From a virus, in IMG/VR virus record IMGVR_UViG_3300034418_000477, positions 1-31,152 of that record: 31,152 nucleotides of DNA. One strand, written 5' to 3'. The notes beneath the pieces are model-generated. The model did not search any database, was not told where the DNA came from, and saw only the letters and a program-made list of their open reading frames with translations. Numbering within the stretch: position 1 is the first letter of the stretch; each line of letters begins with the position of its first letter. A program made the position numbers and the translations under genes. Below, piece by piece: positions 10,815 through 31,097 of this stretch.

Positions 10815-11723
10815 ATGGGATATATAACTAATTATCAATACTATACAAATAATGGAATAATACCTACAGATTCTAATTGGGGTTCTTATCAGTATGTTAG
10901 TTTAGCTGACATAGTGAACAACTTTATGCTTATGTATGTAGGTAACGATAAGCTTGTTAATAATGTTGATCGATACAATGTTTTATTCCATGCTAAAAGA
11001 GCTGTACAAGAGCTTAATTATGATGCTTTAAGAAATATAAAAGTTATAGAGTTTGAATTAGGTGATGATTTAAAAATGATTATGCCTCCAGACTATGTTA
11101 ACTATGTACGTATATCAATGTTAAATAATGGGGTATTATTTCCACTTGTTGAGAATAGAACTCCAATGTCAGCGACATCTTACTTGCAAGATAATAATCT
11201 TGATATTGTATTTGATGTTAATGGAGAGATTGTCACTGGCACATCAAGACTTGATATATTAAGGCAAGACAAACAGTTATATACTGGAATGGGTCCATAT
11301 CAAGGACAATATGGTTATTATTGGGATGGCGATTGGTATTTTGGATATAACTTCGGTAAAAGGTTTGGTTTAAATACTGAAGAGGCAAACGTAAACCCAA
11401 AGTTTCATATAAATAAAGCTGCTGGTGTAATTGATTTTTCTACAGGCGTAGAGAACAAAACAATTGTGTTTGAATATATATCTGACGGAATGGAGAATGG
11501 TGATGACTCTCTTATCACAATCAACAAGCTTGCAGAAGAATATCTTTACGCTTATATTAAATGGGCATTACTTAACAATAAATATGGCGTTCAAGAGTAC
11601 ATCGTAAATAGAGTACGAAGAGAAAAAACAGCTACTCTTAGAAACGCAAAAATAAGGATGAGTAATTTACATCCAGCTAGATTGCTGATGTCATTAAGAG
11701 GTAAAGATAAGCAGATAAAATGA
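10815..11723 (+). CDS. Second head-tail connector/ring-type structural protein (putative)
   Basis: This 302-aa protein shows SLADIVNNFMLMYVGNDKL, then YNVLFHAKRAVQELNYDAL, a helical start like that of the preceding protein. It continues with FELGDDLKMIMPPDYVNYVR, a motif I recall from neck or ring proteins of crAss-like phages. A Tyr/Gly-rich loop (YQGQYGYYWDGDWYFGYNFG) lies near residues 155-175. The C-terminal helix NKLAEEYLYAYIKWALLNN and a basic tail complete it. The stop overlaps the next start as ATGA, giving translational coupling with the tail stabilization protein. Confidence 0.75.
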   Translation: MGYITNYQYYTNNGIIPTDSNWGSYQYVSLADIVNNFMLMYVGNDKLVNNVDRYNVLFHAKRAVQELNYDALRNIKVIEFELGDDLKMIMPPDYVNYVRISMLNNGVLFPLVENRTPMSATSYLQDNNLDIVFDVNGEIVTGTSRLDILRQDKQLYTGMGPYQGQYGYYWDGDWYFGYNFGKRFGLNTEEANVNPKFHINKAAGVIDFSTGVENKTIVFEYISDGMENGDDSLITINKLAEEYLYAYIKWALLNNKYGVQEYIVNRVRREKTATLRNAKIRMSNLHPARLLMSLRGKDKQIK

Positions 11724-14700
11724 TTAATCTAAAAAGAACATTTGTTAATGGCAAAATGAATAAAGACCTTGAGGAGAAACTGCTCCCCAATGGTCAGTAT
11801 TTAGATGCATTAAATATAACTTTAGATAGTGCTGAGGGATCTAATATAGGGTCTATTCAAAATTCAAAAGGAAACTCTTTAATATCAGATATAGCCACTG
11901 TAACAGGGCTAACAGTTTCAAATGCTAGAGCTATAGGTGCTGTATCGTATGAACCAGAGAATTTAATATATTGGCTTGTTACAAGTGATAACTTTGATGC
12001 TATATTTGAGTATAATGAGATCAGTGGTGTTACAAGTAAGATATTACTGAGTACCACTGGCCAATTGAACTTCAATAAGATATATGCTGTAACAGGTATA
12101 AACTACATACCTGCATCCAGAGATTTAGGTCCATATTTATTTTGGACTGACAATCTGAATCCACCTAAGAGAATCAATATAGCAAGAGCAAGAGCGTGGG
12201 TAAATGATGATCCTAACATTGATATTGATACTAATGTTATATTAAGACCACCACTAGACTCTCCAAAGATAGAGATGTCTGTAAATACTGCTGATGAAGC
12301 ATCAACAAATCTTGAGGATAAATTTGTGTATTTTGCATATAGATATAAGTATGTAGATAGTCAATATAGCTCTATGTCTCCATTTTCAGCTGTAGCTTTT
12401 CAGGCTAAAACATTTGGATACGATTATGAGACTGGTGACAATATCGGTATGGAGAACACCTATAATCAGGTGGAGATATCGTTTAATACTGGCAATGAAT
12501 ATGTTGAAGAAATACAAGTTGTTTTTTACGATACATTTGGAACTACAACATACCTGATAGACTCATACAACAAAAGTGAGTTAGGATGGAATGACGATGA
12601 CACACAGAGTATAACATTCTCAAATAACAAGGTGTATACAGCTATTGATGTGTCTCAGATAAACAGATTATTTGATAACGTACCATTAAAAGCTAAGGCA
12701 CAAGAGCTTATCGGAAATAGAATAGTGTATGGAAACTATACGCAGTTTAGAGATATTATAGATGCTAATGGAGACGACATATCGATTGACATGACTGTTG
12801 ACTTAGTGTCATACCCGATAACAGTACCAAATATTGGTACAAAGACCTTTAGGTCAGACAGAGATTATGAATTAGGTATTATATATACAGATGAGTATGG
12901 TAGAATGACCACTGTATTGACATCTGAAAACAATGCTATATATGTGCCGCCATCTGTCTCTGACCAGGCAAATACATTTAAGCTAACTATAAACAACGAA
13001 GCTCCTGAGTGGGCTACTAATTTTAGAATAGCAATAAAACAACCTACTGGTGAGTACTATACAATATATCCATTAAACTTTGTTTTAGATGGTAACTTTA
13101 GATATTTCAAAATAAATGAAGCTGACAGAGATAAAGTTGCTATAGGCAAATATATCATATTTAAATCTAGCAATACGGCTGCTACATACTCAACCAATAA
13201 ATATAAGGTATTAGAGTTAGAAGTAAAAGGAGATGACTTTGTTGCTGGAGCACCAGAAGGACTATATTTTAAAGTAAAAAGACAAGGTGGCGATTCATTT
13301 CTTGATGAAGGTTTTTCTTATACTGCATACAATGCTTCAACAGGTAGAGGGCCAGCGGCAGGTATAACAACATCTGAAACTCCAAATCCAATACAAGGTG
13401 GAACTTTAGGGGGTGGATTTAGTGATGTAAATCAATATCCTGTTTATTATTCAATAACAGGTGATAACTCACTACCTTTACCATATCCATCTATACAGTC
13501 TAACTTTACTTCACCTTTTTTCTCAAAAACAGATAGAAGGATAGTTGTTGAAATACTTACTGCTACAACATTTAGATGGACAAGTGACATAACATTAACT
13601 TCATGGACTACTGATACGATTCCATCTGGCTTGACTTACAACATACTTGAGGGATCTGGTGACACTGAAACTGATTTTAATATTGTTTTTGATACAGATG
13701 GTAACAATCCTACAATACAGTATAATATAGGTGATAGATTTGTATTCAATGTTAGAGGACGTCAAAGCGGTCTTTCTTCTTTATTTGCAGGTACACCATT
13801 TGATCCAACAAATTTTCTTGGTACTTATGGAATTAGTAATGTAATACCTTTTAGTAGTAGAGCTGGAGGTGGTAGTGGGATTGTTTATGGAGGACATTGC
13901 TTACTGAACTTTAATAGTCCAATATATCAAGGAGCACAAATAGAAATAAAGATATTAAATGACGGTGCTCAATTTGCTACTAATGATGCTATAACAAATA
14001 CATTTACTCCGTCAACAAAATATTACGTTAATTTAGAGGAGTGGTGGTACAATGAAGGGCGTATTCAATGGGATCAATATGACGGCACTGGAACAAGTAC
14101 TTCTTTAACTGATCCGTCTAAGGGAATAACTTTTAGACATGGCACAAATTATTCTACTCCTGATGCTGATGGATCTGGATCTAATGATCCAACAAATGTT
14201 ATAACTCAAGCAACGTCACCATTTTCTGGTGCTCAGGATTTATTTATGTGTATAAGGGGCTATGGTGATCCGTCAGGAAGAAATGAAATAAAAGCAGAGC
14301 TAACAATAACCCAAACAGAAAGCAACAACAAACTATCAGCAGAGACTGTACCTGATGATGCTAATCTAGAGATTTATCATGAGCTTAGTCATACATACGA
14401 AATAGAGAACGGTCAGCACAAAATATCTTGGGAATATGCAGACTTTACACCAGGAGGATTTTATACTTATCTAGGACCATTAAACCCTACTACTCCAAAT
14501 GTATTGACAGATAAAAAACACTCATTTAATGTAGGTGAAACAATATATGTTGAAAATCCTGGTTCACCGACAGTAGGTCCTCCAACTGGTTACTACAATA
14601 TAATAAGTGTTTTAGACGAATATACTATAGAAATAGACTGGCCTTTTGTGTCTGGCGCAACTACACCAGGTAAAGTGTTCTATCAAGACTACGAGCAAGA

Positions 14701-15676
14701 CCAATCAATCGGTAATCCTTGCATCCTAGAGATCAACCACATAACCTCTCAAAACTCAGACTTTAATGCCTTTGCATTTGGTAATGGCGTTGAGTCAAAC
14801 AGGATATTAGATGGGTTTTTAAATCCACAGATGAAATACTCTCAAAGGGTAACATCTACGATAGAAGATTATAAAGAACAAACAAAAGAAACATCGTTAG
14901 CGTATAGCGGTCTATATGTCGGCAGTACTTCCGTTAACAACTTAAATGAGTTCAACCTATCTCAAGCTAACTTCAAGAACTTAGACATAAAGTATGGCCC
15001 TATACAAAAGCTGTACGCTAGAGATACTGATCTATTGGTATTACATCAGGACAAGATAACAAAAGTACTATATGGCAAAAACTTGTTAGTTGATGCTGTA
15101 GGTGGTGGCACTGTATCTTCAATTCCAGAGGTATTGGGTAATCAGACTGCACATCCATCGGAGTATGGTATTAGTAATAATCCTGAGAGCTTTGGTAAGT
15201 ACTCAACGTCACTATTCTTTACAGATGCTAGAAGAGGTGCTGTATTGCAGATGGACGGTGATGTTGTTACTGAGATATCTGATAAAGGTATGCGGTCATA
15301 CTTTAGAGATGTTATGCGTGACAATCCTAACACTCAAAAGTTAGGATGCTACGATCCACATGATAATGTGTATATATTAGCGTTTAATGACCAGTCAGTA
15401 TTCCCATGTAGTTTATCTATAAGACCTAGATCTATAAAACTTCCCAGCTCATCAGTAGGAGCACTATTTTTTACTATAACATCTAACACATCATGGACTG
15501 TATCTAAAGATCCTGCTGATACATGGGTATTCTTAAATACTACTTCTGGTTATGGTAATCAAGAGATATATGGAAGTGTATCGACAAATTCAACAGCAAT
15601 GGATAGAGTAGCTATAATAACAGTGACGTACTGTGATGGTTTAGAAGAACAATTTACCTTAACTCAAGAAAGATAA
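11720..15676 (+). CDS. Tail stabilization/muzzle protein, N-terminal part, with C-terminal BACON-like domain
   Basis: This 1318-aa protein starts with FVNGKMNKDLEEKLLPNGQY and LDALNITLDSAEGSNIGSIQ, the signature I know from the large 'stabilization' (tail/muzzle) protein of crAss-like phages. Further conserved-looking blocks are LFWTDNLNPPKRINIARA, KFVYFAYRYKYVDSQYSSMS, LIGNRIVYGNYTQ and LFFTDARRGAVLQMDGD. The tail-core part runs to GCYDPHDNVYILAFND (about residues 1209-1224). Residues about 1231-1316 are then a BACON-like beta-sandwich (SNTSWTVSKDP, then RVAIITVTYCDGLEEQFTLT). Family members normally continue within one chain into a block that is here found in the next gene, so the protein is split. 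Beta-rich throughout; no signal peptide. It presumably forms the short tail around the portal axis. Confidence 0.85.
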   Translation: MINLKRTFVNGKMNKDLEEKLLPNGQYLDALNITLDSAEGSNIGSIQNSKGNSLISDIATVTGLTVSNARAIGAVSYEPENLIYWLVTSDNFDAIFEYNEISGVTSKILLSTTGQLNFNKIYAVTGINYIPASRDLGPYLFWTDNLNPPKRINIARARAWVNDDPNIDIDTNVILRPPLDSPKIEMSVNTADEASTNLEDKFVYFAYRYKYVDSQYSSMSPFSAVAFQAKTFGYDYETGDNIGMENTYNQVEISFNTGNEYVEEIQVVFYDTFGTTTYLIDSYNKSELGWNDDDTQSITFSNNKVYTAIDVSQINRLFDNVPLKAKAQELIGNRIVYGNYTQFRDIIDANGDDISIDMTVDLVSYPITVPNIGTKTFRSDRDYELGIIYTDEYGRMTTVLTSENNAIYVPPSVSDQANTFKLTINNEAPEWATNFRIAIKQPTGEYYTIYPLNFVLDGNFRYFKINEADRDKVAIGKYIIFKSSNTAATYSTNKYKVLELEVKGDDFVAGAPEGLYFKVKRQGGDSFLDEGFSYTAYNASTGRGPAAGITTSETPNPIQGGTLGGGFSDVNQYPVYYSITGDNSLPLPYPSIQSNFTSPFFSKTDRRIVVEILTATTFRWTSDITLTSWTTDTIPSGLTYNILEGSGDTETDFNIVFDTDGNNPTIQYNIGDRFVFNVRGRQSGLSSLFAGTPFDPTNFLGTYGISNVIPFSSRAGGGSGIVYGGHCLLNFNSPIYQGAQIEIKILNDGAQFATNDAITNTFTPSTKYYVNLEEWWYNEGRIQWDQYDGTGTSTSLTDPSKGITFRHGTNYSTPDADGSGSNDPTNVITQATSPFSGAQDLFMCIRGYGDPSGRNEIKAELTITQTESNNKLSAETVPDDANLEIYHELSHTYEIENGQHKISWEYADFTPGGFYTYLGPLNPTTPNVLTDKKHSFNVGETIYVENPGSPTVGPPTGYYNIISVLDEYTIEIDWPFVSGATTPGKVFYQDYEQDQSIGNPCILEINHITSQNSDFNAFAFGNGVESNRILDGFLNPQMKYSQRVTSTIEDYKEQTKETSLAYSGLYVGSTSVNNLNEFNLSQANFKNLDIKYGPIQKLYARDTDLLVLHQDKITKVLYGKNLLVDAVGGGTVSSIPEVLGNQTAHPSEYGISNNPESFGKYSTSLFFTDARRGAVLQMDGDVVTEISDKGMRSYFRDVMRDNPNTQKLGCYDPHDNVYILAFNDQSVFPCSLSIRPRSIKLPSSSVGALFFTITSNTSWTVSKDPADTWVFLNTTSGYGNQEIYGSVSTNSTAMDRVAIITVTYCDGLEEQFTLTQER
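15410..15673 (+). other. BACON-like domain at the end of the 1318-aa tail protein
   Basis: The last ~86 residues show the BACON outline: a strand ending in FFTITSNTSWTVSKDPADTW, a TTSGYGN turn, STNSTAMDRVAIITVTYCDG and a final strand EEQFTLTQ. BACON domains are common in Bacteroidota surface proteins and were noted in crAss-like phage tail proteins, where mucin or glycan binding is suspected. The assignment comes from visible motif order; binding is inferred. Confidence 0.75.
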
Positions 15677-15677
15677 T

Positions 15678-17357
15678 ATGTGTGATTGCATTCAAATACA
15701 ACAAACGGTCAGGAAGTATGAAGTTACTTTTCAGATAGGGAGTGATGCTCAAAAAACGGTACAACTATTAAGTAGAGGTTCTTATCTTGGTTTTGATTGG
15801 TTTAGATTTTATTATTCTATAGGGTCTCCTTCTACTATCTGGTATGATTCTGGAGCTCAACAATGGAAGATAGAACAGGGATTAAATCCTGGTGATACTG
15901 GTGTCTACTTAGCTACTTTTGATGATTTAGTTGGAAACATCCCTTCTGGAAGTATTGGTGTTGGTGAATGGGAGAACGTTGTAGACTTTAATACACTAAC
16001 AACAAACTGGTATATTGAAGAGGTAATAATTAATAATGCAAATGCATTAGGAACATATAATAGCGAGAATTATTTTCAATGGGACTTACAAACTGTTGAT
16101 GACGAGTTATTTTCAGAAATAAATAAGGTTACTTACTATTTGTATTATGATCCAATTTTTGGTGGATGGTATATATCTACAGTGCTTGGAGATTCATCAA
16201 ATGCTATTGCTGAAGTTACTGGAGGCACTGGATGTCCTCCATATATAGGTACTCCTCCTTGGAATCATTCTCTTAGTGGTTATGTAGGCACAATAACGAA
16301 TGCATCAACAAGTTGTGTAGATTATCCAATAAATAATGCTACATGTAGCTGTATAAATGTTACTGCTACAAAGGCTGATAGTGCTATAAGAAACATAGAA
16401 ATACAGTCTACTGGTGTTAAAAATGGATATGGGTATTGGGAGGACTTAATAGATGGTAAACAAGCATATATATTTTATTCAAATGGTATTTGGCTTTTTG
16501 AAGTTGCTGGTAGCATTTCAGGATCTATAGAAACACAAGGTTGTCCTCTAGGAGACTTTGATATTATAGACAATAAATATATTTTAAAATTAAATGTATC
16601 TGAATGCGATGTAGAAGAAAAAACAATTACATATTCAGTAAACAGTGGTGGTTGGACTTCATTTTGGTCTTATAGACCAGACTGGATGGTTGAAATGAAT
16701 AACGTATTGTATAGCTTTAGTAATGGTAGTATGTGGAGGCATAATACAAATAATACTAGAAATAATTTTTATGGCATACAATATACATCAAAAGTAAAAA
16801 CTATATTTAATGACAGTCCGACTGAAAACAAGATGTTTGCTGCTCTTTCTTTAAATAGTAATTACTCCTGGTCGGCAGACATAGAGACCAATATACAGTT
16901 TGCTGATGTTCCGTATACATATTTTGTTGAGAAAGAAAATATATGGTATGCATATATAAGGAGACAAGATAATACTGTAGAGGTCAAGGCTTTATCCACA
17001 CAGGGTATAGGTCAGGTAGACAGTTTTGCTACTCCTACTGCTAACTCATGTGTACTCACATTTACTTTTGATATAGACACTACAGCTGTTAGTGTTGGAG
17101 ACAAGTTATATAAGAACAGTTCAGGCACTTTATTCTTCTTAGGTGACGTTACAGATATTACATCTACAACAATAACTATAGACACTACGTATGGAGCTAA
17201 TCCTACTGCTAGTGATTTTATTATATCTGCTAAAAATTCTCAGACAGAGAGTTATGGCGTTAGAGGTTTTTACATGACTATTGAACTTGAGAATGGCGAT
17301 ACAGAGGAAGTTGAATTATTCTCTATAGCGACAACGACATTCAAAAGTTTTCAGTAA
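15678..17357 (+). CDS. Tail stabilization/muzzle protein, C-terminal part, with N-terminal W/C-rich modules
   Basis: This 559-aa protein starts one base after the previous stop, in another frame. From about residue 312 it carries TITYSVNSGGWTSFWSY, WMVEMNNVLYSFSNGSMWRH, RNNFYGIQYTSKVKTIFND and near the end RGFYMTIELENGDTEEVELF. As I recall, these blocks form the C-terminal half of the single-chain crAss-like stabilization protein, just after its YDPHDNVYILAF block. The N-terminal 300 residues are different. They hold repeated W/Y/G-rich modules with CxC (Cys2/Cys4; Cys223/Cys225) and GCP motifs (about 185-187 and 288-290), resembling small receptor- or glycan-binding modules. So the tail protein is broken, with added modules on both sides of the break. 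The two chains presumably assemble together. Confidence 0.8.
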   Translation: MCDCIQIQQTVRKYEVTFQIGSDAQKTVQLLSRGSYLGFDWFRFYYSIGSPSTIWYDSGAQQWKIEQGLNPGDTGVYLATFDDLVGNIPSGSIGVGEWENVVDFNTLTTNWYIEEVIINNANALGTYNSENYFQWDLQTVDDELFSEINKVTYYLYYDPIFGGWYISTVLGDSSNAIAEVTGGTGCPPYIGTPPWNHSLSGYVGTITNASTSCVDYPINNATCSCINVTATKADSAIRNIEIQSTGVKNGYGYWEDLIDGKQAYIFYSNGIWLFEVAGSISGSIETQGCPLGDFDIIDNKYILKLNVSECDVEEKTITYSVNSGGWTSFWSYRPDWMVEMNNVLYSFSNGSMWRHNTNNTRNNFYGIQYTSKVKTIFNDSPTENKMFAALSLNSNYSWSADIETNIQFADVPYTYFVEKENIWYAYIRRQDNTVEVKALSTQGIGQVDSFATPTANSCVLTFTFDIDTTAVSVGDKLYKNSSGTLFFLGDVTDITSTTITIDTTYGANPTASDFIISAKNSQTESYGVRGFYMTIELENGDTEEVELFSIATTTFKSFQ

Positions 17358-19742: not shown

Positions 19743-22700
19743 ATGAACGAAAAGTTTTTACAACTATACAACTACCTGAACTCCAATGGAATGGTAGAGG
19801 GTATGTCAGCTCAAGATTTCTATAATTCATATTCAAGTGGAGATAATTTTAATCAACTGTATGGATATCTAAATTCAGAAGGAATGACTGACCTTTCTTC
19901 TAATGATTTTCAAAGTACTTATTTTGCAGATCAACAAGTTGAAGATCAACAAGTTGAAGATCAACAAGTTGAAGATCCTAGACAGGCTAAATGGAGACAA
20001 GTAACAGAGGAGGAGGTTGTCCCTGTAGATCAACTTTATTCACAATCAGATGAGTTTGATCCAACATTCAAAGCCGAAGATTTAGATCCTGTGCAGCTAA
20101 AAAAAGCACAAGAAAACTTAGAAAGATTATCAAAAGAAAAAATCATTCCAACTTCAGAAAAAATATGGGCTCAGTTTGATGAGACTTCTCTTGACATTGT
20201 AAGGCATGGTGATAAAATATATCAACTGGATAGCGACAATAATAGATGGAATGAGGTTGTTGTTACTGAAGATTGGGCTAAGGATCCTAGAAGATATTAT
20301 CTTGATGAACAGACAGGTGATTTCACTATAAGAGATTTAACTGGTTCATTAATTACACCTGTTGAAGATGATGAAGTTATTTCAAACTTAAATACAAAGT
20401 TCAACACAAACATCCCTCTAGCCACAAGAGATATGTTACCAACCATACCAGGAATAACTCCTTTTACAGATTTTATGGGTATTAAAATGCCTAGAGTAAA
20501 AAAGCCTACTGCTGAAGTAGAATTATATTCTGGATATGATGAGGACACAAAGGGGATGAAGTTCAGAAAAAATGAAACTAATAATGTATGGGAAAGTGTA
20601 GATGAAAAGGGCGTGGGTACACCTGTTTCTTTAGAGGTATCTAAAGAATTAAACAAAAGGCATGGTACTAACCTAGGTTCAGTACCTGAAGAACCTGTTG
20701 AATTTGGTGGAGAAGAAGATTTGAGATTATTACTAAATTTTGACAAGAATATAGATCCAAAGTCTGTAGAAGAATATAAAAAAGTATTAAAGGAAGCTAA
20801 TGGTAAACCAGTTGTTTTTGATTTCAGTCAAAATAAATATGTAGTAAAAGAAAAGCCTGAAAACAAATTAGAATCATATTCTGTTTTTGATTCAATAAGA
20901 CCAGAAGGCTTTAACTATCTAAAAGAGATTTTAAATCCAGTGTCTAATGCTTTTGAAAGAAAAAAATCAAATATAAAGCAATGGGAAGGTACTGTTAAAA
21001 ATTTCATATATAATAATAATATAGCTAGTCTTGAAGAGGAAGAGGCTATTAGATTATTAAGGCCACAATTTGAAAGATATGGTTTTATATTTGAAGAGAC
21101 AGATGCTGGAGATGGTATGATTGTATCTACATCAGATGGTTTAAGAACTCAATATATCAATTTAGATACTGATGATTATAGTCAAAACATAGCACTACAA
21201 GACTTCCTAATTGAAACTGCTGGACCACAAGCATATGGTATTGATAAAACAGTATTAGACGAAACTGGAGCTCCATTATCTTATGAATCTTTAATAAATA
21301 AGGTAGAGAAACAAATAAGTACTTTTAAAAAGCTTATTAATGGTTCTAGTACAAAAAGACCTATTAGAGATGAAAAAGGTGTTATAGTTGGATATGAAGA
21401 TACTAGAGAGCCAGTTGCTAAGGCTTATGGTGAGTATTTAAATTCAGAAGAATATAAAACATATCTACAAGCTAAAAAGACTGCCAAGCAATATGAAAGA
21501 GCTAAGATGCGGAATCTTTATGATGAAGTAAAAGCAGATCCTTCAGAAGGTAGTGCTGCCAGAAAAAAAGTTATGGCATTTTTAGATGATAAATACTTAT
21601 CTGAATTTAGAACAGACTATAACGTAGAGCTAAATGACTTAAGTCTTTTTGAAAAACATTTAATTTCTCAATATGAAGATTATAGCCAACAAGTAAAAGA
21701 ATTTGATTTAGCAAAAGGCAGTATGACTCCAGAGGAGGCATCTGTAAGAAATGAAGAATTAAATAAATTCAAAAAACATCTAGACACAAATAAAGATAAG
21801 TTCTTGGCAAGAAAAAGAACTATATCTGAAGATATTAAAAGACTTGAGTATCTAACAGGAAAGTATGTTGTCGATAAGTCTAAAATGGGTAACATAGGGT
21901 CAGGGCTATTGAATAGTTTTATGGATGGTGTATCTTCTGTTTATTCTACTTTACAACCTTGGGTTAGAGATAATGCAATGAGTGAAGGTAGAGTTAAGGC
22001 ATCATCTTTAACTAAAGAAGAGGAAAAAAGATATAGAGCTCAAGGATTAAAATCAGAAGATGAAATAGCAAACGCTATAGGACAAGAGATATATAAAGAG
22101 TTTAAAGAAAAAAATGCAAACGATCTAAAAATCAGTTTGGGAGATATGGGTGTATCTAAAGAATACATGCAGTCTGAAGATAGGGGTTTTGTTACAAAAG
22201 CATTGTTTGGAGTGGCTCAGTCTCTACCAGCAATGTTGACATCTGCCATGGGAACTCCAGCTAGTTTAACTGCCCTATCCGCTCAGGCTTTTAGTGCTAT
22301 TGAGGATGAGATGCTTAATGATCCTGACTTTAAAGGAGAGTCGTTAAGTGACATAGGCCTTATAGCTGTTCCTTATGCTATGGGAATGGGTGTCTTAGAA
22401 AAGATAGGTTTATCTACAGCCTTATCTAAAAACCCAGCTGCAAAATCTCTTATTTTAAAATCTATATCTAGCACTATTAAAAAGATAGGTGGAAGTGGAA
22501 GTAAGGATTTAATGGAGAAAGTTTTAGAAAAAGAAATAAAAAGTAATATAGCAAAATTTGGGCTTAGAGTCGCTGGTGGTTTTCTAGCGGAAGCTGAAAC
22601 TGGAGCAACACAATCGCTTGTTTTAGATATAGGATATAAAGAACTTATAAACCAAATAAAGGGCAACGATAGATTAGCTTCTGAACTTACTGGTGGTGAG

Positions 22701-25700
22701 TTGTTTGATACTCCTGACTCTGTTCAAGAAGGTATACTTCAAGTTGTTGAAGATGGTATAGCTGAGGGTATTGGGGGTATAGTTATGACTGGTGCTGCTA
22801 CTGCTAGTCAAGGATTAATAAATGGAAACATATCTTTGTATAACACTGAAGATGTAGAGTTTTTAAAATCAACTACTACCGATCATAATATAAGAAAAAG
22901 CTTAATAGCAAAGCTAAAAGCTGATATGCTTGGAGGTAGAATAACTAAGTCTGAAGCTCAAAAACAATTAGATGCTGTAGACAAAGTTTCAAATATATTT
23001 AAATCTGTTCCTGAAAATCTATCTGAAGATCAGCAGGTACAAGCTGTAAATTTAATTGTCGAGAAACAAAGATTAGAAAAACAAATAGAGGGCAAGGATG
23101 AATCGCTAGTTGCTGCTCAAAAACAAAGAATAAGCGATATTGATAATGAACTAAAAAAACTTAGCGAAGATGCCTTTCAAAAGCAAACAACAGGTGAAGT
23201 TCCTGTACAGCCAGAAGCCACAGTTGGCGAAGAAGTGGAGGGAAGAGAATCCCAAGCAGAACCTCAAGTCGTTACCGAAGAAGAAAACAAGATAAGCGTT
23301 TATCATGGAGGTGAAGTTTCTGACATTAATGTAGCCAGTAAAGAAAATCCATTATTTGTGTCGGAGGATGAATCTCAAGCTAATGAATACGCTAAAGGTA
23401 ATGAAGGTTCTGTTGCTGCATTTGATATAGATAACACAAAAGTTGCATCTGAGCAAGAAATTTATGATGTAATAAATAAATTAGGATTAGAGTCTAAAGA
23501 AGAAGGATGGGACATTAATGACTTAAGCGTATTTGAACTATTAGATAACAGGTTTGAGACATCTTTATCTGATGAAGGTATATCGTCTGTATTTTCTGAA
23601 TTAGAAAAAATGGGATATGGTGCGGCAAGATTTACTGACACGAACCTAAAAACTAATAAACAAGACATTCAAAATATTGTTGTGTTTAATCCAAACATAG
23701 CTACTGAGACTCAAGCACAGACAGAACCATCTACAAAGAATCAAATTACTGTTGAGAATGTAGATGAGATGAGAGCAAAGCAAAAAACATCTACAGGTCA
23801 AAAAGTCGTTACTGCTGCTAAGATGGTATTGAATTCGTTGCCTGGCGTTAAGATATATGTACACGAGACAACATCAGATTATGAAGGTGGAATAAAACAA
23901 AAGTCTGACGAAGGAGATAGGGGTGCATTTATACCAGGGACAAATGAGATACACATCAACCTAGAGAACGGTGGAGACCTTGTTACATTGTTTCACGAGG
24001 CAATGCATAGTGCTCTTCAGTCAAAGGGAATGGAGACAGGTGCTATACTTGACATGGCTAAAGGACTTCAATCAATAGTATCAGATAAAGATTTAAAGGC
24101 TAGACTATCTGACTTTATATCTCAATATGATGAAAATGAACGAGCGGAAGAATATCTGGCTGAACTAGGGGCTATCATGTCGGAAGCAAAGCAAGAACTT
24201 ACTACCACTAAATTTCAGAGATTCAAGGCTTTGATTGGTAGAATCTTTAAGAAGCTAGGACTTCCTACCAGATTGGTTCCATTTGCTAATGCTATGAATG
24301 CCGTTGATGCTGCTTCATTTATGAACAACCTGACTAGACAACTAAGAACTGGAGAGCAGGTTGTTAGTGAGGGAGAGGCAATAAATGTAAACACAGAAGA
24401 TCTATCTATAAAGAAACGAAAGGTAGGATCTTTTGAAGTATCTTATTTTGAAGATGAATCCAGATTCTTTGATTTAGTGAAACAAGGATTAGTAGAAAGC
24501 AACTATGATATAGCAAAAATTGCTGGGCAAGTTGTTGCAGTGCACCAGCCAGACAATATGTTTGTTGGTAATTTAAATTATAAAGGAGAGAATATATTTA
24601 GAGGTAATGGTGGTGTTTTTTACACTACTGATACTGGAAATGTATGGGCTTCTGGTAAAGAAAGTTCCGCTAAACAACTAAGCAATTTAATAAACAGATC
24701 TTTAAAGGAATCTACTGATGGTGTTGGTAGACTTGTGTTGGTTAGAGGTGTAGATTCAAAAATGATATCTTCAGTAGAAGGTGTAAAAGCATCTATGTCT
24801 ATAATTGAATTGATGGTTGATAAAGGACTTATTAGTAGGTCTGATTTTAGATCTTCTTTAATAAGAGCAGGAAAGAATTTTAATATAGATTTTTCAGGTA
24901 AAAATTCTGCTGCCGCTATACATAAAGACATCAAGGATAAGTTCATGGATGTTAAAAATTCAACTTTTGAAAGAAGAGGTGATTTCTTTGATCAAGTAAT
25001 AGATGATTTAGGTAAAACATCAAAAAGTGTTAAAGAAAACATTAAAGGTATAAGAGAGTTTTTAGGCAGTGAGAGAAAAATATCTTTTAGTGTACAAGGT
25101 GTAAGAGATTCTATAGGTAATATATTGACTGAAAGACTTCTTTTAGGATTGCCTAAAAGCCATGTGTATGCTGTTATTGAAGTTACTAAACCAGTTACTT
25201 ATGAAGAAAGAAAAGGTCATGATAGCTATCCTTGGATTTTAAAATCTGAGTCAAAACCTAAACTAAAATTATTATCTGAAAGACCAAATGCAGTAAAAGG
25301 AAATGTGTTTGAAATGATAGATGGATCAGCTCCTACTTATGGTAAGCTAGGTTTATCTAATATAGGAATGGGAATAGCCAGGGTTACCCCACAACAACAA
25401 CCTGAAAAACTGAAGAAGCAGAAGGCACCATCAATCAAAAGACAGAAAGGGGAGAAATTAACAGAGCCTGTTGCTGGAAATAAATTATTCAATGAGCCTT
25501 TAAAAGAGGCAGAAGATATAGCCAAGACTTATATGAAGTCTGCTGGAATGGAATATATTCCAGTAGAAAAAATAAAAAAACTAGATAAAAATCTTTCTAA
25601 AAGAATAGCTACAGCTTACGATCAAATGGAAAATAATCCTAACGATCCAAAAGTTAAAGCTGCTTATGATGCTTTGATGAAAGAAACAATAGCTCAATAT

Positions 25701-28700
25701 GATGCTATAATAGATGCAGGCTATCAGATAGAAATTAATAACACAGAACCATATTCTAATTCTCAAGAACTCATATCAGATTTAAAAGATAATAAGAGAA
25801 TGAGAATGTATTCTACTGAAGCTGGATTTGGAGATACACCTATAACTGATAAACAAAGATCCGAAAGTATATTACTTCAAGACTCTGGTAAAACAGATAT
25901 CAATGGAGAAAAATTATTGAATAATGATATATTTAGATTTGTTCATGACTTTTTTGGACATGCTAAATTAGGAAATAGCTTTGGTCCTATAGGGGAAGAA
26001 AATGCTTGGAGAGTCCATGCAGTAATGTATTCTCCAGAAGCTAGAAAAGCATTAACATCTGAGACTAGAGGTCAGAATAGCTGGGTTAATTTTAGTGGAG
26101 TAAATGATGAGGTTTTCAAGAAGAGAGATAGGGCTAGAGAGCTTCGTAAACAAGGAAAAGTAGAAGAGGCAAATAGGTTAGTAGATGAGGTTTATGAGGA
26201 CATGAAATTTGCTGAACAAAAAATAGGATTACTTCCAGATTTTGCAACTGAAGAAAGAGCTCCATCAATCAAAAAACAAAAAGGCCAAACACCAAGACAA
26301 CAGGCCATTCAAAAGGCCAAAGACAAGTACGAACTGTCTGTTGAGAAGAGAGGTAATTCTCACAATCAAGGTGTCAGTGCTGCCCTTGGTGAGTTAGAAA
26401 AGTCTGACTGGTATGAGAATGCTGACGATACAGCAAAAAAAGATGCGGTTAGAGAGATAGAGAAATTCTTTGGGGCTAAACTAAAGAAGGCTCCATCTGC
26501 TAAAAAAATTACTGGAGCACCTAAAAGAACGAAGGTGACTGTAGATGAAGCGGCTGCACTAAAAGATCAGATAAGACTAGAGGCAAAGGCAGCTAGAGAA
26601 GCTAAGAAAGATCTAAATGAAAAAAGAAAAGGGATTGCAGCGGTTGTTAAAGGAATGGTGAAATCTGGTAAGATTACTGAGAAACAGGCTGCTAGTATTG
26701 TAGCTCAATCAAACATTGTCAATCTAGATAATCCAGAAGCTGTTCAAAGGTTCTTAGATTACGTAGGTAGAGTTTTCGAAGATGCTAACTATAGGGAGAA
26801 ATTATTAGAAGCTAATAAAAAGAAAAAGTCTATACGTAGAGCTGTAAAGACAAACAATCAGGCTGAGGTTATTGGAATGGCGAAGAACTTCTTGAATGTT
26901 GATCCATCAATGGCTGAAGATATTGACGAGTATCTAGAGATAGCTGAAAAAGTATACAACGCTGTTCGGCCATCAAGAGTGAAAGATGCTAGTGTGATAT
27001 ATAAAGAGGCTGCAAACATAGGAGACATTAATGAGTATACACAGCAACAGCTAAAGATACAAGAGGACAACTATAAAAAGATGTTGATTGCTCAGTACAA
27101 TGACCTAAAAGAAGCAGGTCTTATTAGTGAAAGCATGGACATCAAGGAACTTGTCGATACCATAAACATGTTGAAAGATCCTAATGAGTCTACAGATAAT
27201 ACTGAAAGAGTAAGAAAGGCAGTTATAACTAGACTAGACTCTATGATTGGTGTTCTAAATAACATCTTACAAAACAAAATAAATCCAATCACAGGAGAGG
27301 ACATAGATATATCTGAAAAGGATCAGAAGATATTGAAGGCTGTAGCTAATATGGAGTTAGAGAATCTAGATATCAGAAGTCTTATATATCTAACGGAAGC
27401 TCTTGAGAATTATTTTGTGAATGGTATCACTAGTGGACTTGAAGCTAATGTGAAATCATATATAGGTGTAGTGAAGGCAAACATTTTATTTTCATCTATA
27501 AAGGGAACAAAAAGTGTATATTCAATATCAGCAGAACAAATACTAAGTTTACCTCTTCTAATAGAGCGTATATTCAGAAGTCAAACTATTGCCTCTAAAT
27601 TCATGCAGGACTCAGGGTTGATGGATATCATTAACGGTAAGAATAAAGCTGAAACAACATACAATCTATTATTAAGTCAGTACGCAAAACAAGACTTCTA
27701 TAAGCAGAAAGATTTTATGGCTGAAGATAATATGTATGAGAGAGGTATGTTGGCGTTCTTAATGAGAAATGTTTCAGGGAATCAAGAACAGATGAAAGCT
27801 GAAACACAAAGAAGAATAAATGCGATTAAAGAAAGTATAGATAATCTATCAAAGAGCAAGGACTCCGACTTAAAAGATAAGGCTAAAAAATATCAAGAGG
27901 TTGCTGATAAATTGAATTTAGATTCAAATGACATTGATGTTATAATGGCAAATGCATCTAAGATGAATGAAGATGCTGTCAACTGGTGGATAAATCAGTG
28001 GCAACAGCACTATCAAGATCTTTATGATATAAGTCTATCCGTTTACAATACTAAATTGAGTAGCGATGTAAACTATACACCAGACAACATCAAAAAGACA
28101 GACACTGTATCTTCTGAAATTGATAGCGAAAGTTCTTTTATTTCTTCATTAGGATATGTTGACACTAGAAAGACTGGTGTGTTAATGGAAAATCAAAGAG
28201 CATTACCTAAAGACGGATATGTTGATCTTTCTTTTGAAATGAATAATGCCAAGTCATTGAGATCAGCATTGGTAGATATAAATACTGCTGGAGCTATCAG
28301 ACAAACTAAAGCGTTCTTAGAGACAAAGGCATATATAGATGCCATGCCTGATACAGAGACAAGAAATATATTAAATAAAAGGATATCTAATTATATCTCT
28401 AGGTCAAAAGGGAAAAAGGTAGATCAAAAAGATTCGTTTAAAAAGTTAGAAAAAACATTTAATACTCTTGCTAAATTTGGAACAATAAAAGCATTGGGAG
28501 GTATATTCTCAGCACCAAAACAGCTGACTCCTTTGGTTAACACCTTATGGAATTCAGGAAGAGTTGATATTGTAACTCCTTCTCAATGGAAATGGATAAG
28601 TGAATTAGGAATGGGTATATCTAATCGTGGTGCTGAGGCAGATGCAGCTGTTACTATGGTAGATAGACGTATATCTAAATTAGCTGAAGGAATAGGAAAA

Positions 28701-30095
28701 GTGGCAGATCCATTTTCTAAAGTTGGTGATGCTTGGATAAACATAGCTATTAAATATCCAGATGCTATCGCTGCAAGATCTTCCTTTATATCTTATTACA
28801 AGAAGTACTTGAAAAGAAATGGAATAAATATAAATGATATAGACTGGTCCACTCACGAAGTAAATCAAGAGGCTGCTGACTATGCTCAACTTCAAGTTGA
28901 TAGGCAACAAAACATATCTGATCCTCTTCTTGCTGGTGAATTGTGGTTAAGTGAAAAGACATTTAATAAATTTATAACTAGATTATTCATGCCATTTACT
29001 TCTTTTATATGGAACCAAAGAGCAAGATCAATGAATGACTTACTAACATTGACATCTAATCTATCTAGTAAAGAAGAAAAAATAAAAGCATTCAAATCAA
29101 TTTCTGCTTTACCAATAGAACTTGCTGTATTCCAAGCTCTTGGAGTGGCAGCGAGATATGCTATGGAAAAAATAACAGACTTGATATTTGGAGAAGAAGA
29201 TGATGATGAAGAGAAAATAGAATTTGATACTATATTTGGTAAAATGGATGAGGAAACATTGAGATTATTTTCAACTCCAATAAGATCTTTTGCTGTTGAT
29301 TTATTATCTCCACTTCCAGGATTAACTGATGATATAACTGTATCAACTATAAACGAGTATTTATTAAAGGAATTACCAATGGTTTCTGATGAATCTATAA
29401 ATGAATTAGTTGATGAAGAAAATAAAATTAGACTTGCTTCAGGAAAAAATAAATTAGAAGGTAAAGAACTTGAAAAATTTATTAAAGACATAAAAGAAGA
29501 AAGAACATTTTCATTATTTGAATCTAGAAACAATTTTGATAAGGCAAGTTTTATTCCAGGATCCCCAGGTATATTGTTCAAGACAGTTTCTGAAATTAAT
29601 GATATGTATACAGCATTAAAAACAGGAGAGATAATTAAAGAATATCATGGTAAAGAAAAAACAGAGTATTTGAATGAAGAAGATAGAAATAAACTTAAAT
29701 ATGCTATATTGTTAAAAGGTTTGTATGGTTTAAATTTATTACCTAGAGAAGCAGGATCAATATCAGATAAAGCATTTCGTAGAATCAAGAAAAATGCAGT
29801 ATCAGAAAGCTTTCACGAAAAACAAGGGGAATTAAAGAAAACTATTGGAAGAGATCCTAACGAATTAGAATTATTATTATTAGAAAAGGGAACTAAACCT
29901 CAAAATATAAAGAAAGAGTCTAATTACATCAACAAAATGTTGGATGAAGATCAGGTTAAAGAATATATAAAAGTAAGATCAAAAGTGCAAAACGTATCAG
30001 ATAAAGTTAAAGGATATATAGCTAGAAACATAGCAGCTGGTCTTACAGCAGAACAGGTGATAGATAAATTAGCAGAAATAAGGGGAAAAAAATAA
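19743..30095 (+). CDS. Giant polyvalent internal virion protein with ART-like and metalloprotease domains
   Basis: A single 3450-aa protein. Domains seen in order are: twin N-terminal repeats (residues 5-30 and 36-60); a DQQVE linker (63-77); acidic helical and beta parts to about 720; Ala/Gly hydrophobic segments between about 820 and 1030 (FGVAQSLPAMLTSAM, GIAEGIGGIVMTGAA); an ADP-ribosyltransferase-like domain (about 1184-1320); a zincin with HEAMH at 1418-1422 and a Glu helix near 1469; an uncharacterised domain (about 1561-1880, GQVVAVHQPDNMFVG); an HDFFGH domain (about 1903-2170); helical regions; and a C-terminal block (PKQLTPLVNTLW, then FITRLFMPFTSFIWNQRA). A likely membrane helix lies near 3123-3150, followed by GEEDDDEEK. 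This architecture matches 'polyvalent proteins' packaged and injected with phage or conjugative DNA. It is third in the ejection cassette, at the place of T7 gp16, but without a visible transglycosylase motif. Confidence 0.85.
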   Translation: MNEKFLQLYNYLNSNGMVEGMSAQDFYNSYSSGDNFNQLYGYLNSEGMTDLSSNDFQSTYFADQQVEDQQVEDQQVEDPRQAKWRQVTEEEVVPVDQLYSQSDEFDPTFKAEDLDPVQLKKAQENLERLSKEKIIPTSEKIWAQFDETSLDIVRHGDKIYQLDSDNNRWNEVVVTEDWAKDPRRYYLDEQTGDFTIRDLTGSLITPVEDDEVISNLNTKFNTNIPLATRDMLPTIPGITPFTDFMGIKMPRVKKPTAEVELYSGYDEDTKGMKFRKNETNNVWESVDEKGVGTPVSLEVSKELNKRHGTNLGSVPEEPVEFGGEEDLRLLLNFDKNIDPKSVEEYKKVLKEANGKPVVFDFSQNKYVVKEKPENKLESYSVFDSIRPEGFNYLKEILNPVSNAFERKKSNIKQWEGTVKNFIYNNNIASLEEEEAIRLLRPQFERYGFIFEETDAGDGMIVSTSDGLRTQYINLDTDDYSQNIALQDFLIETAGPQAYGIDKTVLDETGAPLSYESLINKVEKQISTFKKLINGSSTKRPIRDEKGVIVGYEDTREPVAKAYGEYLNSEEYKTYLQAKKTAKQYERAKMRNLYDEVKADPSEGSAARKKVMAFLDDKYLSEFRTDYNVELNDLSLFEKHLISQYEDYSQQVKEFDLAKGSMTPEEASVRNEELNKFKKHLDTNKDKFLARKRTISEDIKRLEYLTGKYVVDKSKMGNIGSGLLNSFMDGVSSVYSTLQPWVRDNAMSEGRVKASSLTKEEEKRYRAQGLKSEDEIANAIGQEIYKEFKEKNANDLKISLGDMGVSKEYMQSEDRGFVTKALFGVAQSLPAMLTSAMGTPASLTALSAQAFSAIEDEMLNDPDFKGESLSDIGLIAVPYAMGMGVLEKIGLSTALSKNPAAKSLILKSISSTIKKIGGSGSKDLMEKVLEKEIKSNIAKFGLRVAGGFLAEAETGATQSLVLDIGYKELINQIKGNDRLASELTGGELFDTPDSVQEGILQVVEDGIAEGIGGIVMTGAATASQGLINGNISLYNTEDVEFLKSTTTDHNIRKSLIAKLKADMLGGRITKSEAQKQLDAVDKVSNIFKSVPENLSEDQQVQAVNLIVEKQRLEKQIEGKDESLVAAQKQRISDIDNELKKLSEDAFQKQTTGEVPVQPEATVGEEVEGRESQAEPQVVTEEENKISVYHGGEVSDINVASKENPLFVSEDESQANEYAKGNEGSVAAFDIDNTKVASEQEIYDVINKLGLESKEEGWDINDLSVFELLDNRFETSLSDEGISSVFSELEKMGYGAARFTDTNLKTNKQDIQNIVVFNPNIATETQAQTEPSTKNQITVENVDEMRAKQKTSTGQKVVTAAKMVLNSLPGVKIYVHETTSDYEGGIKQKSDEGDRGAFIPGTNEIHINLENGGDLVTLFHEAMHSALQSKGMETGAILDMAKGLQSIVSDKDLKARLSDFISQYDENERAEEYLAELGAIMSEAKQELTTTKFQRFKALIGRIFKKLGLPTRLVPFANAMNAVDAASFMNNLTRQLRTGEQVVSEGEAINVNTEDLSIKKRKVGSFEVSYFEDESRFFDLVKQGLVESNYDIAKIAGQVVAVHQPDNMFVGNLNYKGENIFRGNGGVFYTTDTGNVWASGKESSAKQLSNLINRSLKESTDGVGRLVLVRGVDSKMISSVEGVKASMSIIELMVDKGLISRSDFRSSLIRAGKNFNIDFSGKNSAAAIHKDIKDKFMDVKNSTFERRGDFFDQVIDDLGKTSKSVKENIKGIREFLGSERKISFSVQGVRDSIGNILTERLLLGLPKSHVYAVIEVTKPVTYEERKGHDSYPWILKSESKPKLKLLSERPNAVKGNVFEMIDGSAPTYGKLGLSNIGMGIARVTPQQQPEKLKKQKAPSIKRQKGEKLTEPVAGNKLFNEPLKEAEDIAKTYMKSAGMEYIPVEKIKKLDKNLSKRIATAYDQMENNPNDPKVKAAYDALMKETIAQYDAIIDAGYQIEINNTEPYSNSQELISDLKDNKRMRMYSTEAGFGDTPITDKQRSESILLQDSGKTDINGEKLLNNDIFRFVHDFFGHAKLGNSFGPIGEENAWRVHAVMYSPEARKALTSETRGQNSWVNFSGVNDEVFKKRDRARELRKQGKVEEANRLVDEVYEDMKFAEQKIGLLPDFATEERAPSIKKQKGQTPRQQAIQKAKDKYELSVEKRGNSHNQGVSAALGELEKSDWYENADDTAKKDAVREIEKFFGAKLKKAPSAKKITGAPKRTKVTVDEAAALKDQIRLEAKAAREAKKDLNEKRKGIAAVVKGMVKSGKITEKQAASIVAQSNIVNLDNPEAVQRFLDYVGRVFEDANYREKLLEANKKKKSIRRAVKTNNQAEVIGMAKNFLNVDPSMAEDIDEYLEIAEKVYNAVRPSRVKDASVIYKEAANIGDINEYTQQQLKIQEDNYKKMLIAQYNDLKEAGLISESMDIKELVDTINMLKDPNESTDNTERVRKAVITRLDSMIGVLNNILQNKINPITGEDIDISEKDQKILKAVANMELENLDIRSLIYLTEALENYFVNGITSGLEANVKSYIGVVKANILFSSIKGTKSVYSISAEQILSLPLLIERIFRSQTIASKFMQDSGLMDIINGKNKAETTYNLLLSQYAKQDFYKQKDFMAEDNMYERGMLAFLMRNVSGNQEQMKAETQRRINAIKESIDNLSKSKDSDLKDKAKKYQEVADKLNLDSNDIDVIMANASKMNEDAVNWWINQWQQHYQDLYDISLSVYNTKLSSDVNYTPDNIKKTDTVSSEIDSESSFISSLGYVDTRKTGVLMENQRALPKDGYVDLSFEMNNAKSLRSALVDINTAGAIRQTKAFLETKAYIDAMPDTETRNILNKRISNYISRSKGKKVDQKDSFKKLEKTFNTLAKFGTIKALGGIFSAPKQLTPLVNTLWNSGRVDIVTPSQWKWISELGMGISNRGAEADAAVTMVDRRISKLAEGIGKVADPFSKVGDAWINIAIKYPDAIAARSSFISYYKKYLKRNGININDIDWSTHEVNQEAADYAQLQVDRQQNISDPLLAGELWLSEKTFNKFITRLFMPFTSFIWNQRARSMNDLLTLTSNLSSKEEKIKAFKSISALPIELAVFQALGVAARYAMEKITDLIFGEEDDDEEKIEFDTIFGKMDEETLRLFSTPIRSFAVDLLSPLPGLTDDITVSTINEYLLKELPMVSDESINELVDEENKIRLASGKNKLEGKELEKFIKDIKEERTFSLFESRNNFDKASFIPGSPGILFKTVSEINDMYTALKTGEIIKEYHGKEKTEYLNEEDRNKLKYAILLKGLYGLNLLPREAGSISDKAFRRIKKNAVSESFHEKQGELKKTIGRDPNELELLLLEKGTKPQNIKKESNYINKMLDEDQVKEYIKVRSKVQNVSDKVKGYIARNIAAGLTAEQVIDKLAEIRGKK
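19755..19922 (+). repeat. Twin 25-residue repeats at the N-terminus of the giant protein
   Basis: Residues 5-30 (FLQLYNYLNSNGM...DFYNSY) and 36-60 (FNQLYGYLNSEGM...DFQSTY) align over their whole length with the pattern F.QLY.YLNS.GM......DF...Y. The DNA copies (19755-19832 and 19848-19922) have diverged, so the duplication is not recent. It is probably a small helical docking module, for example for the capsid or portal (inference). Confidence 0.85.
19929..19973 (+). repeat. Three exact 15-base tandem repeats (DQQVE x3)
   Basis: The unit GATCAACAAGTTGAA occurs three times without change in frame, encoding DQQVE three times in a flexible linker after the twin repeats. Perfect identity implies recent slippage or ongoing copy-number change. 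Confidence 0.97.
23289..23700 (+). other. ADP-ribosyltransferase-like domain in the giant protein
   Basis: Residues about 1184-1320 show ISVYHGGEVSDINVA, then LFVSEDESQANEYAKG and, at the end, QNIVVFNPN. A YHG turn, an 's....A..YA' helix and a final 'E/Q..VVF.P' strand are the outline of ART-fold domains of injected polyvalent proteins. The last catalytic position appears to be Gln rather than Glu, so activity is uncertain. Confidence 0.6.
23845..24190 (+). other. Zincin-type metalloprotease domain in the giant protein
   Basis: KIYVHETTSDYEGG leads to GAFIPGTNEIHINLENGG and LVTLFHEAMHSALQSKGM, an HExxH zinc site (His1418, Glu1419, His1422). A later helix RAEEYLAELGAIM offers Glu1469/1470 as third ligand. 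The spacing fits the gluzincin-like proteases of polyvalent proteins. It may cut host proteins after injection or process the virion protein itself. Confidence 0.78.
25450..26250 (+). other. Uncharacterised HDFFGH domain in the giant protein
   Basis: Residues about 1903-2170 contain FRFVHDFFGHAKLGNSFGP (His2068, Asp2069, His2073), then EENAWRVHAVMYSP and SETRGQNSWVNF, ending at KIGLLPDF. I recall the same pattern in other giant phage proteins without a function. The His, Asp and Glu cluster suggests a metal or nucleotide site. Confidence 0.6.
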
Positions 30096-30116
30096 TTAAA
30101 TTATAATACCTTTTTC
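30085..30116. terminator. Weak AT-rich hairpin between the convergent genes
   Basis: GAAAAA (30085-30090) can pair with TTTTTC (30111-30116) around an AT-rich inner region with TAATT/AATTA self-complementarity. A run of A on one side and T on the other could end transcription from both directions at this convergent junction. The stem has almost no GC, so it is only a candidate. Confidence 0.25.
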
Positions 30117-31097
30117 AATCTTGAATTGTCTCACTGTTATTTGTCCTTTGTCGTTGTCAAGGATCGCAAAAGACTGATCCCATTCATTGATCTCTAGATA
30201 TTCTGGTTCTAGTTCGCACATGCACCCTAAGGAATAACCATTGATAGTGGAGGAATCATCAACATTATAAACTCTCTGAGAGCTTGATGAGGTCTTATGA
30301 AAGTGATTGATAATTACATTTGTTTTCATTCTCATTAAAGCTGTCCTTGCTGGGACAACTCCACCAGCTCCAGGGATTTTATCTCCATGCTCTATCAGAT
30401 AATTTCCAAATGATACTCTGGATCTGAATGGGAGATATTCAATTCTTGTTGCACCCACTTGTAAAAGGACATCAAGTCTAAACTCATCGACATCCAAAAG
30501 CTCAACAGCTTTACTCCTCAAATACCTCTCAAAACGGTTTTCATGGTTTCCAGGGATGAAATATATTGAAATCCCTAAGAAACGCTCTCTAATGTACTCC
30601 AGAAACTCTCTACCAGCTTCTATCTCATGTTTGAACCTTGCTTTCCTAGGATCTTTTTCATGAAAGGAGAGAGCATAAAAATCAAGTAGATCTCCATTGA
30701 TATAAATACCATCCACATTCTCCTCCTCAAATTTGTCAAACATTGCCTCCAGAGCTTCATTGTCATGGTATGGGATATGTACATCTCCAAAGATTCCGAG
30801 TTTTTTAATACCAGATGGGAGCTTGATTCTTTGTCTCTTTTCAATATGTGACTCTGGGAGTGATTTGGTGAATTGCCTAGACTCTCTTACAAATCGATTT
30901 GTTTTGATTACGTCTCTATTTTCATTTCCATTAACTCCTAAATAGTATCTGACTCTCCCATATATCTTCTCAAAACTATCAAAGAAAGATTTGTTCTCTT
31001 CAAATATCTTTCTGGATAGTGTCCTTGCTGGTGCATTCGGAAACCTCTCGATATAATCAAGAATTATTTTTGTCTCTGGTTTTGGAATTTTTCCCAT
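30096..31097 (-). CDS. Calcineurin-like metallophosphoesterase
   Basis: This is a 333-aa protein read on the minus strand from ATG 31097. It has the dinuclear-metal phosphoesterase motifs in order: GIFGDVH (Asp105, His107), YINGDLLDF (Asp136), IPGNHENRFE (Asn184, His185), EHGDK (His237) and INHFH (His265, His267). All usual ligands are present, so it should be active on a phosphomonoester or phosphodiester, possibly nucleic acid or cyclic nucleotides. The N-terminal ~60 residues (PARTLSRKIFEENKSFFDSF, then RVRYYLGVNG) look like a small helical DNA-binding-type domain found before such phosphoesterases in other phages (recalled). It converges on the giant gene with no gap and probably belongs to an early or middle operon continuing beyond the window. 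Confidence 0.9.
   Translation of the reverse strand: MGKIPKPETKIILDYIERFPNAPARTLSRKIFEENKSFFDSFEKIYGRVRYYLGVNGNENRDVIKTNRFVRESRQFTKSLPESHIEKRQRIKLPSGIKKLGIFGDVHIPYHDNEALEAMFDKFEEENVDGIYINGDLLDFYALSFHEKDPRKARFKHEIEAGREFLEYIRERFLGISIYFIPGNHENRFERYLRSKAVELLDVDEFRLDVLLQVGATRIEYLPFRSRVSFGNYLIEHGDKIPGAGGVVPARTALMRMKTNVIINHFHKTSSSSQRVYNVDDSSTINGYSLGCMCELEPEYLEINEWDQSFAILDNDKGQITVRQFKIEKGIII

Follow-up and report, generated by a model that had tools for sequence, protein, structure and literature searches.

A crAss-like phage muzzle encoded by two genes, with a BACON domain and further sequence at the break

Described muzzle proteins and their relatives

The crassvirus muzzle is a hexamer at the tail tip; it is among the most conserved parts of the crAss-like virion and likely the gatekeeper of ejection, and little is understood of the way in which these phages recognise a host surface. 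Muzzle gp44 of crAss001 (PDB 7QOK/7QOL) is one chain whose two core blocks meet without an insert at about residues 1198-1201, and in gut relatives of crAss001 the region was matched in a single piece across this junction in nearly all records listed. The available portions of the crAss001 structure paper describe insertions in the crass and IG2 domains and do not mention a split (Bayfield et al. 2023, PMC10172136). A preliminary description of the DNA considered here stated that related phages join both blocks in a single chain, and this is the case for phi38:1 (gp097), Calle_1, Gundel_1 and the Flavobacterium elemo phages including elemoF. In the nozzle and tail-hub proteins T7 gp12 and P22 gp10, assigned by Foldseek matches to the same propeller nozzle class as the muzzle studied here, the protein is likewise known only as a single chain, and we know of no comparable cassette in either. 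In contrast, the muzzle is split in the cultured Pachyviridae phages phi18:3, phi13:2, phi46:3 and phi19:3, whose halves are annotated only as separate structural proteins. For phi18:3, the record annotates both gp114 and gp115 from experimental virion MS/MS, a record note that joined halves would equally have earned. BACON domains are also tied to phage tails in crAssphage, where tandem BACON repeats thought to bind the host surface lie in a separate tail-associated ORF (PMC6949934). A literature search, with most subscription papers outside its reach, found no report of a split muzzle.

The window, i.e. the whole stretch of 31,152 nucleotides analysed here (IMG/VR record IMGVR_UViG_3300034418_000477), resembles each of these systems in part. 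With crAss001 gp44 it shares a homologous core on both sides of the junction, the propeller and ring-joining fold and the place in the structural gene block, whereas gp44 is one chain with strands b and c joined without an insert. The muzzles of phi38:1 and the elemo phages are homologous to that of the window (35-41% identity over the matched core) but are single chains with 5-20 aa between the blocks. The phi18:3 pair breaks at the same residue as the window and carries its insert on chain 1, where it is large; the insert is, however, a different one (cadherin-like/Ig, about 500 aa), and chain 2 lacks an N-terminal extension. Alignments, which included loci L003, L004, L009 and L010, place the window with the Pachyviridae-type split muzzle, defined by a break at the b-c loop and an insert on chain 1. 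Unlike the crAssphage BACON arrays, the window has a single BACON domain, as the C-terminal tail of muzzle chain 1.

Two muzzle genes and their junction

The two genes (Table 1) are co-directional and lie in different frames. Gene A matched Pfam crAss_MUZ with 55.9 bits (cut-off 27, E 2.9e-15) and PHROG 14478 at 4.5e-195, while gene B matched crAss_MUZ_C with 51.6 bits (cut-off 27, E 1.3e-13), a match confined to residues 359-430, and PHROG 18548 at 1.2e-53. Both Pfam families were thus matched above their curated cut-offs, and the profile searches proposed in the preliminary description confirmed its reading of the two genes as a muzzle. Since this muzzle is encoded by two genes in different frames, and not as a single polypeptide of the crAss001 type, it represents a variant architecture of the crassvirus muzzle family. 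The assignment also corrects an annotation, as the C-terminal half sits in PHROGs as a protein of unknown function. A tblastn search with chain 1 gave matches in phi38:1, the elemo phages and further isolates. Against the PDB, phmmer with P0001 and P0002 gave no useful match, and profile A1 matched crAss001 gp44 weakly (0.024). The core of chain 1 ends with GCYDPHDNVYILAFND, and the core is picked up again in chain 2 at TITYSVNSGGWTSF. Within the C core (16620-17354), the stretch VGDKLY...GDVTDI...TITID weakly resembles KOW/ribosomal L24 (E 0.38, not significant).

Table 1. Features of the split muzzle in the window, all coordinates being those of the window.
Feature	Position	Strand	Basis or remark
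Muzzle chain 1 (N half, gene A, P0001)	11720..15676	+	1318 aa; Pfam crAss_MUZ, PHROG 14478, tblastn
Final core block of chain 1, with propeller blades as far as strands a and b of the broken one (GCYDPHDNVYILAF)	14843..15382	+	alignment A1 and profile search; strands assigned from the homologous phi38:1 model
Chain 1 tail (C-terminal), a single BACON domain (Ig-like)	15383..15673	+	PF19190; model; PDB match 3zmr
Stop TAA, one base, start ATG	15674..15680	+	spacing also in L016
Muzzle chain 2 (C half, gene B, P0002)	15678..17357	+	559 aa; Pfam crAss_MUZ_C, PHROG 18548
W/C-rich extension at the N terminus of chain 2 (315 aa)	15678..16622	+	without Pfam or PHROG match
C core of chain 2: the broken blade's strands c and d (TITYSV, GWTSFWSY), with the last blade and the C-terminal domains	16620..17354	+	alignment A2, profile matches; homologous strands in model

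The core blocks stand in series, as had been proposed, and the extra sequence between them (15386-16622) amounts to about 1.24 kb, close to the 1.2 kb first given. The BACON-like end of chain 1 was likewise borne out: the final 97 aa matched PF19190 with 27.5 bits when scanned alone (cut-off 25) and with 20.2 in the full protein, and a model of the tail (pLDDT about 95) found its best PDB match in 3zmr (Bacteroides ovatus GH5), at 1.8 Å over 89 columns. Scanned alone, the tail thus joins a BACON profile match to an Ig-like fold. It is conserved in 25 other retrieved loci; bacterial BACON domains are sometimes spacers, not binders. The W/C-rich modules that open chain 2 were confirmed as well; residues 1-315 gave no match in Pfam or PHROG. 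Among the retrieved loci, residues 223-315 (93 aa) have their sole relative in L016 (28%), and the rest of the extension has none there. For folding, both genes were read through the stop, with TAAT treated as one residue; the fused model did well on the BACON domain and on a good part of the C core, but its quality over the insert was poor (pTM 0.35), and it was of no use for the 315-aa extension, for which no fold is claimed because of this low confidence.

The stop-T-ATG junction is spaced identically in L016, an independent contig and the closest relative with both halves, which makes a base-calling error at this point very unlikely. With stop and start only one base apart, it might be thought that a self-splicing intron, an intein, a programmed frameshift or read-through rejoins the halves, so that the virion holds a single chain, and introns and inteins do interrupt core genes in some gut crAss-like phages (PMC7886860). 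This is very improbable. No intron family was matched in eight split loci at gathering cut-offs, nor at the window junction when every match up to E 1 was considered, and no intein family matched the inserts, the latter being judged on this alone. Furthermore, 1-4 complete genes lie between the halves in other phages, the tails are under purifying selection and in the window's clade start with a folded BACON domain, and in most loci a separate ATG for chain 2 stands directly at strand c.

Split and joined loci among relatives

IMG/VR was scanned with profiles of both core blocks and each locus was then classed as split, with the blocks in different reading frames or genes, or joined. The blocks part at a homologous point in 103 loci and are joined in one chain in 33, counts that include contigs fetched twice and isolate copies. 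The two classes are separated without intermediates: joined loci have 4-20 aa between the profile blocks, whereas in split loci the N block is followed by a tail of 39-991 aa, and a long insert is found in none of the 33 joined homologues. The split is not peculiar to the window phage: among the retrieved relatives in which both halves are present, those nearest to it all show the break at the same residue. In 93/103 split loci chain 2 has an ATG at most 15 codons from the C core (strand c). Most relatives carry the whole insert on chain 1 or in separate intervening genes, and chain 2 starts just before the core strand; extra N-terminal modules on chain 2, as in the window, are a minority arrangement. 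Ten further records gave the N half alone near the match; when the whole contigs were searched, five yielded the C half several kb further along the same contig, and the others are short contigs. By arithmetic from the scan positions, the N and C halves lie up to about 8 kb apart. Single-protein searches of IMG/VR returned nothing for P0002 and only four truncated relatives for P0001.

In Maribacter phage Panino (L006, PP540027; 6700-6980) two muzzle genes are annotated whose break lies upstream of the site used elsewhere, and the absent stretch continues in another frame, probably through a frameshift or sequencing error; this locus was not counted as split, its break lying at a different, non-homologous place. 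Panino illustrates how an assembly error, a frameshift artefact or a pseudogene could produce an apparent split, and the same might be supposed for the window. The recurrence of one break residue in more than 100 loci across many samples, as well as in four cultured phages, the identical stop-start spacing in L016 and the coding constraint on both sides of the break leave this explanation with practically no probability.

A tail region of about 300 aa is homologous across most other split lineages (89/103 split loci, 0/33 joined), and in the window's clade the tail starts with a BACON-type domain. L018 and L023, close kin of the window, have the shared tail module in a separate downstream gene and not on chain 1; there (L018:7902-10550, L023:7921-10803) a gene of 883-961 aa starts with the tail module, a second break in the same protein. 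In the 83 non-redundant loci read, the halves are separated by 0-4 complete genes. The N-terminal motif YYLDG..L..A.AVFTDA.LT..A.DG.YS.G..VR.Q..G.L...Q.C..C recurs in many of the products of these genes and is followed by variable sequence, as would be expected of an anchor plus a variable part. The tails and the proteins from the intervening genes have a modular make-up, with BACON, Ig, cadherin-like and further domains of adhesion type. The chain 1 tails of L101 (7544-8902) and L114 (7544-8890) hold YIYFDSSGSM, which resembles the metal-binding site in adhesion domains of the von Willebrand A type; at E 0.01 no such domain was called there by Pfam. Among the members scanned, the intervening products also include enzymes, namely glycosyltransferases (GlcNAc-type), an FkbM methyltransferase, a 2OG-Fe(II) oxygenase and a radical SAM/SPASM protein, which could modify the displayed tails or the host surface. 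As a set, the enzyme-like genes come from L147, L150, L151, L153, L116, L121, L018, L023 and L035, and a 300-aa family that recurs in these loci begins with the motif M..ICAQPANQYFxWQ.

Codon comparisons of the tails gave dN/dS of about 0.07-0.57, mostly below 0.35, right up to the stop codon; the tails are translated and under purifying selection. Over 2147 non-independent pairs, mean identity was 66% for the N core, 31% for the tail and 48% for the C core, and the tail was the least alike part in 99.6% of these pairs; between the window and L016 the corresponding values were 77%, 45% and 61%. Trees were built from 83 distinct split and 22 joined rows, with a careful tree of 50 rows. The latter implies at least five changes between split and joined states, well-supported branches making four of them unavoidable, and in none of the 200 bootstrap trees did a single change suffice. 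The tail-module tree mostly tracks the core clades, with the exception that the tails of phi13:2, L144, L101 and L114 cluster together though they come from two core clades. This history fits an early split followed by several re-fusions and some exchange, or the repeated gain of one cassette, and its direction is not resolved; the deepest ancestor can be argued to have been joined because the gut relatives are joined.

The agreement of tail-module and core clades is also what simple inheritance would give, and the split may have been a neutral leftover fixed by chance in an ancestor, the cassette being a merely tolerated landing site without a role in host recognition. Some tails are short (39 aa in L079), and enzyme genes as well as binding modules occur between the halves, as such a site would allow. 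Nevertheless, tails and intervening proteins are constrained, modular and equipped with adhesion-type domains, they diverge faster than their flanks, and the long insert is absent from all joined homologues, so that a neutral origin appears unlikely. Host recognition is reasonably likely to be the main role of the cassette.

The break in the fold and a proposed assembly

An AlphaFold model was made of the C-terminal part of the joined phi38:1 muzzle, a homologue and not a split pair, and was built from alignment rows that were IMG/VR copies only. The model (pLDDT 83) matched best in the PDB the crAss001 tail with muzzle gp44 (7qol_P, 1.1e-13; also 7qok), and further the nozzle proteins of T7-like and P22-like phages, so that this homologue of the split pair has a propeller nozzle fold in its C-terminal half. 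One blade consists of strands a (177-182), b (187-192), c (196-201) and d (206-211), and the break site corresponds to residues 193-195, in the b-c turn, where pLDDT is about 90. The preliminary description had placed the break inside the insertion; an insert does lie at the break, but this was not the full account, as the site itself is, in the phi38:1 model, the loop between strands b and c of one propeller blade. Beyond this blade come three strands of one more, and the broken blade is therefore probably blade 6 of 7, the penultimate one. With the break in the b-c loop of one blade, the two chains should complement each other within that blade and complete it. In propellers the b-c loops share a face with the inter-blade loops, and from this general geometry the ends freed at the break should point distally, toward the cell.

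Together, it is suggested that the muzzle, the tail-tip nozzle, is an obligate two-chain protein. Chain 1 would run from the N-terminal core through strands a and b of the penultimate blade and end with the BACON domain; chain 2 would begin with displayed modules of its own and continue with strands c and d of the same blade and the remaining core. The adjacent genes, probably coupled in translation, would give two chains that assemble without a peptide bond and complete one propeller per subunit. The break would then be a site of display and exchange, with free ends bearing host-binding modules that may be lengthened, swapped or moved into separate genes while the core is left undisturbed. 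We consider a two-chain muzzle with displayed tails to be probable, with co-assembly, orientation and binding function as inferred parts of this reading; that the two chains form one complex is an interpretation that finds support in the phi18:3 record, where each half carries the virion MS/MS flag. A far more speculative extension, to which we give a low probability, is that a large aquatic crAss-like lineage carries a two-chain nozzle with a swappable host-recognition cassette in one blade, and that binding via the freed tails strains or extracts the half-blade and so opens the tail gate.

On the preferred reading of a two-chain muzzle, the break would mark a precise, conserved display site at the tail tip and suggests that two chains are able to make up one nozzle propeller. 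The stretch between the halves could serve as a simple marker for locating host-binding modules across hundreds of aquatic phages not in culture. Split (phi18:3) and joined (phi38:1) muzzles both occur in cultured phages of Cellulophaga, which makes these predictions directly testable.

Elsewhere in the window, positions 19743-30095 encode a 3450-aa protein that contains TLFHEAMHSAL (metallopeptidase-like HExxH), had no Pfam match at E 0.01 and is probably the giant ejected cargo protein. A metallophosphoesterase gene on the minus strand (30096-31097; Pfam Metallophos 1.4e-10, PHROG 221) is convergent with this giant gene, its last base adjoining the giant gene's stop.
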